The notes beneath the pieces are model-generated. The model did no database searches, was not told where the DNA came from, and worked only from the letters and a program-made list of their open reading frames with translations. 64,000 nt of DNA from Sorangium aterium (lineage in GTDB: Bacteria; Myxococcota_A; Polyangia; Polyangiales; Polyangiaceae), in NCBI RefSeq assembly GCF_028368935.1, contig NZ_JAQNDK010000004.1:682001-746000 (forward strand), in the 5' to 3' direction. This document shows positions 56,618-59,532 of the stretch, piece by piece. How positions within the stretch are numbered: position 1 is the first letter of the stretch; every line of letters begins with the position of its first letter. Made by a program: the position numbers and the translations under genes.

Positions 56618-56698
56618 ACGTGGAGCGCCGGGGCGGGGCGACGGAAGCGGCCCCGCCCGACGGTAACTGTGAATCAACGAACCCCTCTGGATCCATTC

Positions 56699-58288
56699 AT
56701 GCGTTTGCTCGACCGCTCAAGAACCGCCCTCTCATCGATCCTCGCGACGACGACCATCGTCCTTTGCGTGACGCAGGCGAGTGCGCAGAACCCGCCCGGC
56801 AGAACCCAGGGTGAGCGTCCTGTACCTGCGCCCGGTGGTGCGGCCCCCGCGCCTGCCGGCGTGGCCCCCGGCGCCGCGGCGCCTGTGCCCGCTGGCGCGG
56901 CGCCTGCGCCTGCTGGCGCGGCTCCGACGCCCGCGGGCGCGACGCCTGCTGGCGCGGCCCCCGCCGCGCCGGGCGCCGCGGCCGCCGCCCCGGCTGCTCC
57001 CGGCGCGCCGCCCCCCGGCACCCCGCCCGCGGGCGACGCGGCCGCGGAGGCCTTCGTCGAGCCCGATCCCAACGCCGTCACGCGCGACGACCTGCAAGGG
57101 CTCGTCACCGACCTCGAGAACTTCAAGTTCCAGTGGCAGCGAGAGCGCGACCTCCACACCGCCCTCTCGACCCGCTCCCTCCTCGTCGGCGGCGTCATCC
57201 AGGCGCGCATCGGATGGACGGAGCAGCCGGTGAACACGGCGACCTCGAACGATCGCAAGGTGACGTTCGACACGGGCGCCGCGACCCTCACGTTCAATGG
57301 CATCCTCTACAAGGACTACGAGGAAGGCCGCAACCTGACCTACTCGGTGCGCTTCGGCGCCTCGCCCCAGCAGGCGAGCAACAACAGCTTCCTCAACCTG
57401 CTGGACGCGCAGCTGGCGTACTCCGTGCTCCCCACCCTCGCCCCCGAGGACTGGGTCCTTCAGGTCACCCTGGGCCAGCAGCTCCTGCCGTTCGGGCTGG
57501 AGGTCCCCGCGAGCGAGGAGCTGAAGCCGGTGATCACCAACGCGCAGTTCACGACGAAGCTCGGGCTGAACCGGCGCGACCTCGGGCTCATCGTCCGCGG
57601 CGACATCCTGCCGCAGGTGGACTACGGCTACAACTACCGGGCGCCCATCCTCGCCTACGCGATCGGCATCGTCAACGGGAGCGGGCCGAACACGACCGAC
57701 GACAACAGCGAGAAGGACATCATCGGCCGCCTCGCGTTCACCGTGCCGTCCGACTACAACTCCATCCTCCGCCAGATCACGCTCGGCGGGAGCGCGTACA
57801 TCGGCTGGCAGAACACGTTCCTCAAGGACGAGAAGAAGACGCTGTCCGGAAAGGGCGTCAAGCGCCGCTTCGGCGGCGATATCTACTACAACCACTATCC
57901 GATCGGCGTCACCTACGAGTTCATCTACGGCCAGGACGACGCGACGCTCGGGACGACGGCAGAGGACCCTCGGAAGACGAGGCAAACCAGCCTGTCGCAC
58001 GTGGCGACCTTCTTCTACAACTGGGGCGAGCAGTTCCTGAGGGGCTACCGCAACCAGGGCCGCTACGACGACTGGTGGCCGAAGACCTACCAGCCGTTCC
58101 TCCGCGTCGACCTCTTCGACCCGAGCACCGAGGTGAAAGAGAACCGGGTCGACGTCTACACGCTCGGCTTCAACGTCTTCTTCGCGGAGACGACGAAGTT
58201 CCAGCTCAACCTCAACCGTCGAGACGACCGCACGAGCACAGAGGGGGCCACGCACGAAATCCTAGCCCAGCTCCAAGGCGGCTTCTGA
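56699..58288 (+). CDS. Outer-membrane porin (OprP/OprO-like) with Pro-Ala linker
   Basis: ATG 56699 starts a cleavable signal peptide (LATTTIVLCVTQASAQ); an upstream GTG 56669 is possible. 529 aa. After cleavage comes a low-complexity linker (residues about 40-115; repeats of APAGAAP), then a short coiled segment (QGLVTDLENFKFQWQRERDL) and a beta-barrel: alternating aromatic strands such as GVIQARIGW, ATLTFNGILYKDYEEG, LTYSVRFGA, and the C-terminal Phe of outer-membrane proteins. PYGLE-type text LLPFGLEVPASEELKPV is typical of phosphate-selective-porin-like channels. It should let the substrate of the ABC importer cross the outer membrane. Confidence 0.83.
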   Translation: MRLLDRSRTALSSILATTTIVLCVTQASAQNPPGRTQGERPVPAPGGAAPAPAGVAPGAAAPVPAGAAPAPAGAAPTPAGATPAGAAPAAPGAAAAAPAAPGAPPPGTPPAGDAAAEAFVEPDPNAVTRDDLQGLVTDLENFKFQWQRERDLHTALSTRSLLVGGVIQARIGWTEQPVNTATSNDRKVTFDTGAATLTFNGILYKDYEEGRNLTYSVRFGASPQQASNNSFLNLLDAQLAYSVLPTLAPEDWVLQVTLGQQLLPFGLEVPASEELKPVITNAQFTTKLGLNRRDLGLIVRGDILPQVDYGYNYRAPILAYAIGIVNGSGPNTTDDNSEKDIIGRLAFTVPSDYNSILRQITLGGSAYIGWQNTFLKDEKKTLSGKGVKRRFGGDIYYNHYPIGVTYEFIYGQDDATLGTTAEDPRKTRQTSLSHVATFFYNWGEQFLRGYRNQGRYDDWWPKTYQPFLRVDLFDPSTEVKENRVDVYTLGFNVFFAETTKFQLNLNRRDDRTSTEGATHEILAQLQGGF

Positions 58289-58290
58289 GG

Positions 58291-58413
58291 AGCGATGCTC
58301 GCCCGCTTCGGATACGGGCCCACCTCGACGTCTTCGGTGCTCGGCGTACCGGAGTACGCCTGCGCGCCGAAGACGCCGATCTGGGCCCGTCTCCTGTGCG
58401 GGCGAGCATCGCT
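58291..58413 (+). repeat. 123-base imperfect inverted repeat between porin and binding-protein genes
   Basis: Both ends carry AGCGATGCTCGCCCGC and its complement (58291-58306 and 58398-58413). Inside, ACGGGCCCA, GTCTTCGG and GGCGTAC each have a matching complement at the right distance, converging on GGCGTACCGGAGTACGCC. It begins three bases after the porin stop and ends 37 bases before the binding-protein start. It would form a very stable branched or interrupted hairpin. Confidence 0.88.
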
Positions 58414-58449
58414 CGGCGACGCGTGGCAATGAATTCAGTGAGGAAAAAT

Positions 58450-59532
58450 ATGAGACGAGCTTTGATTTTTGTGCAGATGTTGGTGGCGGCGATTTTGACG
58501 TTGTCTGCGCATGTGGCGCGGGCGGACGCGCCTAGCGTCATCCGGGTGGCGTTCGCGGGGGTGGGGATCGGGAACCGGCCGTTCGTCGGCGGTAGCAGCT
58601 TGAGCGTGGTGCACGCGCGGGGGCTCCTGGAGGAGGAGTTCAAGAAGGACAACATCAAGATCGAGTGGTCCTTCTTCAAGGGCGCCGGGCCCGCCGTCAA
58701 CGAGGCGTACGCGAACCACCTGCTCGATTTCGCGCTCCAGGGAGACCTGCCGTCGAGCATCGGGAGGGCAGGGGGGCTCAAGACGAAGCTCCTCGCGGGG
58801 GTGTCGACGAGGCAGCACACCTACCTGGCCGTCCCGGCGGACTCGTCGATCGCGTCGCTCGCGGACCTCAAGGGGAAGAAGGTCGCCCTCTTCAAGGGCA
58901 CGAACCTGCAGCTCGCCGTCAACAAGATCCTCGCGGGCAGCGGCTTGTCGGAGCGCGATCTCCGGATCCTCAACATGGACTCCGCGACCGCGAAGGCGGC
59001 GCTGGCGACCAGGGACATCGACGCCGCCTTCGGCGGATACGACCTCCTCACGCTCCAGGATCAAGGGGTCGCCAAGATCGTCTACTCGACGAAGAACGAC
59101 TCGCCGGCCTACCTGCGGCACGCCCACCTGATCGTCACCGAGGACTTCGCGAACAAGTATCCGGACATCACGAAGCGCGTCGTCAAGGTCGTCGTGCAGG
59201 CCGCCCACTGGATCGCGCAGAACGAGGCCAACCCGGCGCCGATCTACCAGCTCTGGTCCAAGTCGGGGGTGCCGTACTCGAACTTCAAGGCGGACCAGAC
59301 GGGCGACTCGCTCAAGGTGCGCGCGAGCCCCCTGTTCGATGAATACCTGATCTCCCGCTACAAGGCGGCCGTCGTCGACGCGAAGCGGTTCGGCCTGATC
59401 AGGAACACGTTCGACGTCGACTCCTGGATCGATCTGCGGTTCCTGAACGCGGCGCTGAAGGAGCTGAACCTCGAGGGCTACTGGCCCGAGTTCGACGTGA
59501 ACGGGAAGGTCAAGCACCCCGGGAGGTCATGA
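58450..59532 (+). CDS. ABC transporter substrate-binding protein (SsuA/NMT1-like)
   Basis: ATG 58450 has GAGG 6-7 bases before it and starts a signal peptide (ALIFVQMLVAAILTLSAHVARADA); ATG 58429 is an alternative. 360 aa. The type II periplasmic binding fold of the nitrate/sulfonate/taurine group is visible: FAGVGIGNRPFVGG, KGAGPAVNEAYANHLLDFAL, SLADLKGKKVALFKGTNLQLAV, DIDAAFGGYDLLTL. These proteins bind anionic small molecules such as alkanesulfonates, nitrate or aromatic acids. The porin and amidohydrolase upstream argue for an organic acid rather than nitrate. Confidence 0.9.
   Translation: MRRALIFVQMLVAAILTLSAHVARADAPSVIRVAFAGVGIGNRPFVGGSSLSVVHARGLLEEEFKKDNIKIEWSFFKGAGPAVNEAYANHLLDFALQGDLPSSIGRAGGLKTKLLAGVSTRQHTYLAVPADSSIASLADLKGKKVALFKGTNLQLAVNKILAGSGLSERDLRILNMDSATAKAALATRDIDAAFGGYDLLTLQDQGVAKIVYSTKNDSPAYLRHAHLIVTEDFANKYPDITKRVVKVVVQAAHWIAQNEANPAPIYQLWSKSGVPYSNFKADQTGDSLKVRASPLFDEYLISRYKAAVVDAKRFGLIRNTFDVDSWIDLRFLNAALKELNLEGYWPEFDVNGKVKHPGRS

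Follow-up and report, generated by a model that had tools for sequence, protein, structure and literature searches.

What is a giant palindrome doing between the genes of an uptake operon? This question is raised by a locus of Sorangium aterium in a stretch of 64,000 nucleotides, here called the window (C4:682001-746000 of G000, its own genome of 13.47 Mb). The initial annotation had described a 123-base inverted repeat at 58291-58413, lying between a porin gene and ABC genes, and both statements hold with refined boundaries. The repeat spans 58290..58414 on the + strand, with 51-nt arms (58290-58340 and 58364-58414) that are 84% complementary and a spacer of 23 nt. Its predicted RNA fold reaches -106 kcal/mol, compared with -59.6 +/- 4.0 for 200 dinucleotide shuffles, none of which was equally stable (z-score = -11.7). 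Fold and pair counts define a 17-nt outer stem with its 5' arm at 58290..58306 and its 3' arm at 58398..58414 (both +), and the apex holds a module, GTGCTCRGCGYAC-NNNN-GTRCGCYTSCGCGC (58337..58367, +; G000:C4:740337-740367), identified by a module search as the part common to other genera. The upstream gene (56669..58288, +; 539 aa, start possibly further in) belongs to the Porin_O_P family and ends with a TGA at 58286..58288 (+), where the element is docked. The downstream gene (58450..59532, +) encodes an NMT1-like ABC substrate-binding protein, with its ATG at 58450 and GAGG at 58440, and is followed by permease and ATPase genes. The element, and with it the 5' arm of the outer stem, starts 1 nt past the porin TGA and ends 35 nt before the NMT1-like ATG. 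Positions 58415..58425 (+) may be the beginning, shortened here, of the 3' tail of many copies (GCGACGC...), to which the likeness is weak. Rfam returned only two microRNA matches on the element, far below gathering score.

A genome search, proposed in the initial annotation as the way to find a second copy, revealed dozens of them in G000. The DNA search gave 187 first-look candidates, the best 40 of which were scored and correspond to 40 places (47 rows, 7 being the reverse strand of an already listed place). Allowing at most 3 mismatches, a 29-nt core occurs at 58 sites in G000 and its reversed-pattern control at none. The element is present in all six genus genomes searched, a 38-nt pattern found 113 stretches in a named genome collection (among the 80 matches listed, all are Sorangium), and 16 of 98 family genomes match at E <= 0.001, with strong matches only in the six same-genus genomes. 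The copy set comprises 162 non-overlapping matches, 44 in G000 and 118 in the 113 named stretches, and includes 156 near-full copies (42 and 114, respectively), the window element being one. Copies were chosen by sequence and not by position: G000 contributed its best 40 and a few others, and the remainder came via the 38-nt pattern. This choice partly accounts for the near-invariance seen in the core's right half. In 22 stretches of 20 kb taken from G000 at round coordinates, one near-full and one split copy were found. As in miniature inverted-repeat elements (MITEs), coding capacity is lacking: the element is 125 nt long, and the two split copies studied contain other elements. At locus L237 (G003:C1:1138567-1138903) we observed a tandem array of three units (period 105 nt), one element copy followed by two without the left foot.

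The palindrome is thus one copy of a dispersed Sorangium element, and this lineage acquired it directly after the porin stop codon. Gene-end orthologs of the window locus were found in 3 of the 5 other genus genomes (90-92% identity), with none found in G003 and G005, and because all three lack the element, we place its insertion behind the porin stop. In these orthologs a native stop, TGA or TAG, occupies the corresponding position, and the ribosome site and the conserved ATG of the next gene are kept. At L018, where 5 of 5 orthologs lack the element, comparison of the filled site, CGCTA-element-TAATGG, with the nearest ortholog, CGCTAATCGG, shows a TA duplication. A target-site duplication, which the initial annotation had suggested looking for, is therefore seen at this one site, and none is seen at the window site. 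All 5 orthologs of L040 are empty and its TGA is native, while 2 of 3 orthologs of L034 are empty and the third retains a 15-nt foot. The gene docked at L034 is shorter than its orthologs, which implies that the element provides its stop codon. In G002 (L203), the L034 ortholog is followed by a 15-nt remnant, TAGAGCGGCGGTCAC, which apparently forms its stop, at another codon than in L034. A profile search of the ortholog loci for the window, L018, L040 and L034 detected the element in these four own loci and in no ortholog locus. L033, L077 and L123 have one empty ortholog each; the L033 and L077 genes are ~3 and ~5 codons shorter than one ortholog each, and the L123 copy stands behind no stop codon. 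Among the matches listed, some sites are filled in at least two species, and empty orthologous sites together with sites common to several species indicate that the element is both moving and retained. The near-identical dispersed copies and the filled versus empty sites support an earlier guess that the palindrome is a miniature mobile element.

The position behind a stop codon is general. Using a simple codon-usage gene caller written for the analysis, 149 of the 156 near-full copies have a called upstream gene, on the same strand in 139, and in 127 of the 149 the stop codon of that gene lies on the same strand, no more than 6 nt from where the element begins. None of the near-full copies falls within a called gene, although genes cut short by an insertion are scored as docked, because the caller closes the reading frame at the element's own TAG. 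The main registers are TAG at -1, its G being the first element base (63 copies), and TGA at -2, its GA being the first two (34 copies). Stops within 8 nt of the element are TAG in 73, TGA in 56 and TAA in 1, against TGA in 346, TAG in 106 and TAA in 22 background genes. Where the neighbouring genes are co-directional, sense copies outnumber antisense ones by 48 to 7. A far end (CCGCTCTA, at most 1 mismatch) can be recognised in 25 copies, and in 9 of them its CTA is the stop of a convergent gene. Stems of this sort are rare at ordinary gene ends: among 313 serving as control, an exact 9-bp stem starts from offset -2 in 2 and from -1 in 1; over offsets -6 to +6 the sum is 26 stem cases, in which one end can count several times, and such stems are commoner from +10. 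The TGA-class foot is identical to TGAGCG, the stop context at 37 of the 313 G000 gene ends, and this context may contribute to the TGA class; no hairpin rule was seen at ordinary TGAGCG gene ends of G000. A family scan of 34 of the 35 G000 upstream proteins, leaving aside the long one of L012 and 95 from other Sorangium loci, found no family common to more than 2 of the 34, and docking involves many unrelated genes, not the window operon alone.

Additionally, the module extends beyond the genus. With at most 2 mismatches it was found in 11 of the 108 family genomes, belonging to 5 of 48 genera, and the control gave 0; the four genera besides Sorangium have giant hairpins that retain just the apical module. 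The Sorangium element belongs to this wider Polyangiaceae set of giant hairpins with a common apical module, which lie mostly in gene sense with a stop codon at or inside the stem foot. Of the weak-match loci in other genera, 15 of 18 are giant hairpins; L231, L235 and L236 were rejected as family members, being chance matches with no module hairpin. The 34 module sites of other genera mostly form hairpins of 118-145 nt, a few folds being longer and three sites being interrupted by a contig end. All 31 sites with a called upstream gene have it on the same strand, with the stop inside or flush with the fold in 28 of 31; L233, L242 and L245 (the last interrupted by a contig end) have no stop in or at the fold. 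The module stem covaries, as AACGTAC/GTACGTT, GCCGTAC/GTACGGC and GGCGTAC/GTACGCC. The docked gene of L232 is DnaK (Pfam HSP70), and those of L234 and L244 are, judged by their termini, presumably groES and rpsS. In G083 (L252), two elements lie between the members of one convergent gene pair, and each gene has one of the two docked on it in sense.

The imperfections of the stems bear on which strand folds. Across 142 distinct Sorangium rows, Watson-Crick pairs make up 94.8% of the outer helix, compared with 84.8% (maximum 85.8%) for shuffled 3' columns, a shuffle that ignores the kinship of rows. Leaving out the fixed T.G column (49/77), the Sorangium deviations on the sense strand comprise 92 A.C and 19 G.U cells, spread over 23 and 12 columns, respectively, with three columns making up 59 of the 92 A.C cells. 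A first unfiltered count, made on free arm alignments with internal loops included, gave A.C 172 versus G.U 157 for Sorangium and 66 versus 24 for other genera. Isolated mismatches in distinct contexts of other genera are A.C in 23 and G.U in 4 (p = 0.0003, a value that is too small because one context is found in three genera and some are common to related copies). The strand-bias events are partly common by descent. Sites that are A.C on the sense strand are G.U or G.T on the antisense strand, and the antisense strand is predicted to be the more stable one by RNA folding (137 of 156 Sorangium and 24 of 31 other-genera copies) as well as with DNA parameters (130 of 156 and 27 of 31). Counting against antisense folding, the invariant T.G pair of the module forms an ordinary wobble in sense RNA and leaves a C.A mismatch when the antisense strand folds. 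The excess of A.C over G.U on the sense strand argues against fine selection on a sense mRNA hairpin, for which we find no support, and so bears on the two other guesses of the initial annotation, a possible mRNA stabiliser or partial terminator. The imperfections suggest that the antisense strand is the one handled.

Two interrupted copies were considered as ends of an autonomous parent and rejected, as each hairpin had itself received an insertion. In L055 (4088-5669), a transposase gene of Tn5 type, 461 aa long and flanked by CTCAGGAT-like ends, landed in the element apex. In L110 (4384-6540), a group II intron (Rfam group-II-D1D4-3, with RT and maturase domains) lies antisense inside the copy, 5 nt past the apical stem. 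Group IIC-attC introns sit in attC bottom strands, in the orientation seen in L110, according to part of one report (PMC7923331). The L110 intron, which is group II by Rfam and domains and may be class C, is an independent hint of antisense folding. Two families were searched for a partner enzyme without finding one: Y1 transposase (PF01797) has no match in G000, with 5 of 14 control genomes positive, and none of the 3 DDE_3 loci in the genome has element-like ends.

With moderate confidence, we read the element as a non-autonomous, MITE-like mobile element whose folded antisense strand serves as enzyme substrate, similar to attC in behaviour without being attC. A putative trans-acting enzyme would spread the copies by recognising the folded antisense (bottom) strand through its shape and the apical module. 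The arms would then need to match, and the stem letters would be free to drift or to be re-copied. Copies may be tolerated or kept at places where they end a gene, which would be the reason for docking; insertion lengthens the spacer between the genes, and in places the element itself provides the stop codon. A more specific version, which we regard as speculative and on balance quite improbable, is a Polyangiaceae single-stranded DNA element that is read by shape on the antisense strand, behaves like attC outside integrons, docks on stops and has the gene end copied into its arm at some sites.

A process of this last kind could also act by itself, with template switching during replication copying one arm into the other, and sometimes the gene end too, so that pairing would persist with no selection; we take this to be possible, if on the unlikely side. 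In other-genera elements, the 3' arm matches the end of its own gene (9 coding nt and the stop) at 7.86 of 12 positions, above the 7.11 for the ends of other genes (0/5000 permutations), and a match of at least 10/12 occurs at 6 of 28 usable sites versus 7 of 756 controls. At groES, 30 loci were compared and 16 gene ends parsed, and G029 is the only genome with the element, by profile and module. There the 3' arm carries an inverted copy (11/12) of GTTCTGGAGAAG, the conserved C-terminal VLEK codons; at this point other genomes encode VLEK, VIEK, VLDK or similar. The excess is weak for the 9 coding nt alone (reached by 66/5000 permutations) and absent in 127 Sorangium copies. Strand-symmetric copying also predicts no bias of A.C over G.U, and it leaves the dispersal, the sense orientation, the stop docking and the conserved module unexplained. 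Such copying is compatible with a mobile element whose antisense strand is folded, and the two can coexist.

That same bias weighs on an unlikely RNA-level alternative, in which a sense hairpin at stop codons tunes how stable the upstream mRNA is or how well it is translated, and terminating ribosomes open the hairpin's foot, as for ERIC elements. The sense orientation at stop codons is what it expects, and the tolerance of A.C above G.U on the sense strand is the opposite. Stop-proximal ERICs are said to prefer one orientation and to duplicate TA, as De Gregorio reportedly described in 2005. Sections of two reviews place ERIC at Yersinia gene 3' ends, with an orientation-dependent effect and an RNase E site (PMC10969869, PMC2229807). 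A classic TA-duplicating MITE of the IS630/Tc1 type, which we hold to be rather improbable, would dock because coding DNA has few TA or CTAG sites apart from those at TAG stops. The TA flanks on both sides at L018 agree with it, and C precedes the left TA in 45 of 69 copies versus 18 of 58 ordinary TAG stops (Fisher p = 0.00017), with G after the right TA in 15 of 25; the flanking bases fit a CTAG preference. In 504 kb, CTAG occurs 76 times in intergenic sequence, 19 times at stops and 18 times in genes (TA 1254, 77 and 3262, respectively), so that stops account for ~20% of the CTAG sites outside genes, yet TAG is the stop in 61 of 69 TAGAGC copies. These counts contradict a TA or CTAG preference as the sole cause of docking, although the flanking bases support a CTAG preference as such. 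Further, this type of element leaves the orientation unexplained, the TGA class has no TA at the left foot, and 0 of 3 DDE_3 loci carry element ends. Least probable by far is an immobile bidirectional terminator or insulator between convergent genes. Same-strand copies do face a convergent gene in 24 of 37 cases in G000 and 65 of 100 elsewhere, compared with 124 of 326 background gene 3' ends (from pair counts), but empty orthologous sites demonstrate insertion, the window sequence has no U-run 3' of the stem as a Rho-independent terminator would, and about a third of copies, the window's included, lie between co-directional genes.

Among known systems, ERIC (or IRU), a 127-bp enterobacterial palindromic MITE, resembles the element in size, palindrome, dispersal, mobility, proximity to genes and an orientation-dependent effect at the 3' end, as far as the partial descriptions go. 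By its published description it differs from the present set, in which the stop codon mostly lies at or in the stem foot, other genera retain just the module, the mismatch bias is antisense and, within the genomes examined, the element is found only in Polyangiaceae. Excerpts on attC (PMC7923331, PMC8946536) describe little sequence conservation, a conserved imperfect palindrome at the gene 3' end, strand-specific bottom-strand folding and group IIC introns inserted in opposite orientation. The present element parallels these features, with a group II intron at L110 and with bottom-strand folding favoured by predicted energies and mismatch types only. The attC core pair RYYYAAC/GTTRRRY is fully present in 0 of 154 Sorangium and 0 of 31 other-genera copies, and these stand singly and dispersed behind resident genes, whereas attC sites form cassette arrays. 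REP sequences, associated with RAYT, are likewise dispersed extragenic palindromes, which one source in part describes as clustering at coding-region 3' ends (PMC1590033), but another in part gives them 20-40 bp (PMC3733652), and G000 has no Y1_Tnp match. RUP and Correia MITEs share a size of about 100-150 bp, and RUP targets TA in the portion consulted of one review (PMC2229807); the present element differs in its stop-codon docking and has no partner IS among the DDE_3 loci. By analogy, the closest model for the size and habit of the element appears to be ERIC, and that for the logic of its structure attC. In the literature covered, which lay mostly outside subscription journals, we recognised no description of this element, its docking rule or its cross-genus structure.

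Bacterial MITEs are mainly intergenic in the part of a review that treats them (PMC10969869). Base-phased docking on the stops of unrelated genes calls for a mechanism that targets gene ends or for selection at translation stops, and the gene-specific arms of some genera and the strand-biased imperfections belong to the pattern that needs explanation. The more than 150 natural copies form a set for separating RNA-level from DNA-level functions of the hairpin. Giant hairpins on the stops of groES-like (L234), rpsS-like (L244) and dnaK (L232) genes could affect core operons of these Polyangiaceae. If the reading as a single-stranded DNA element that copies gene ends were true, each copy would be tailored to its gene, including groES-, rpsS- and dnaK-like genes.
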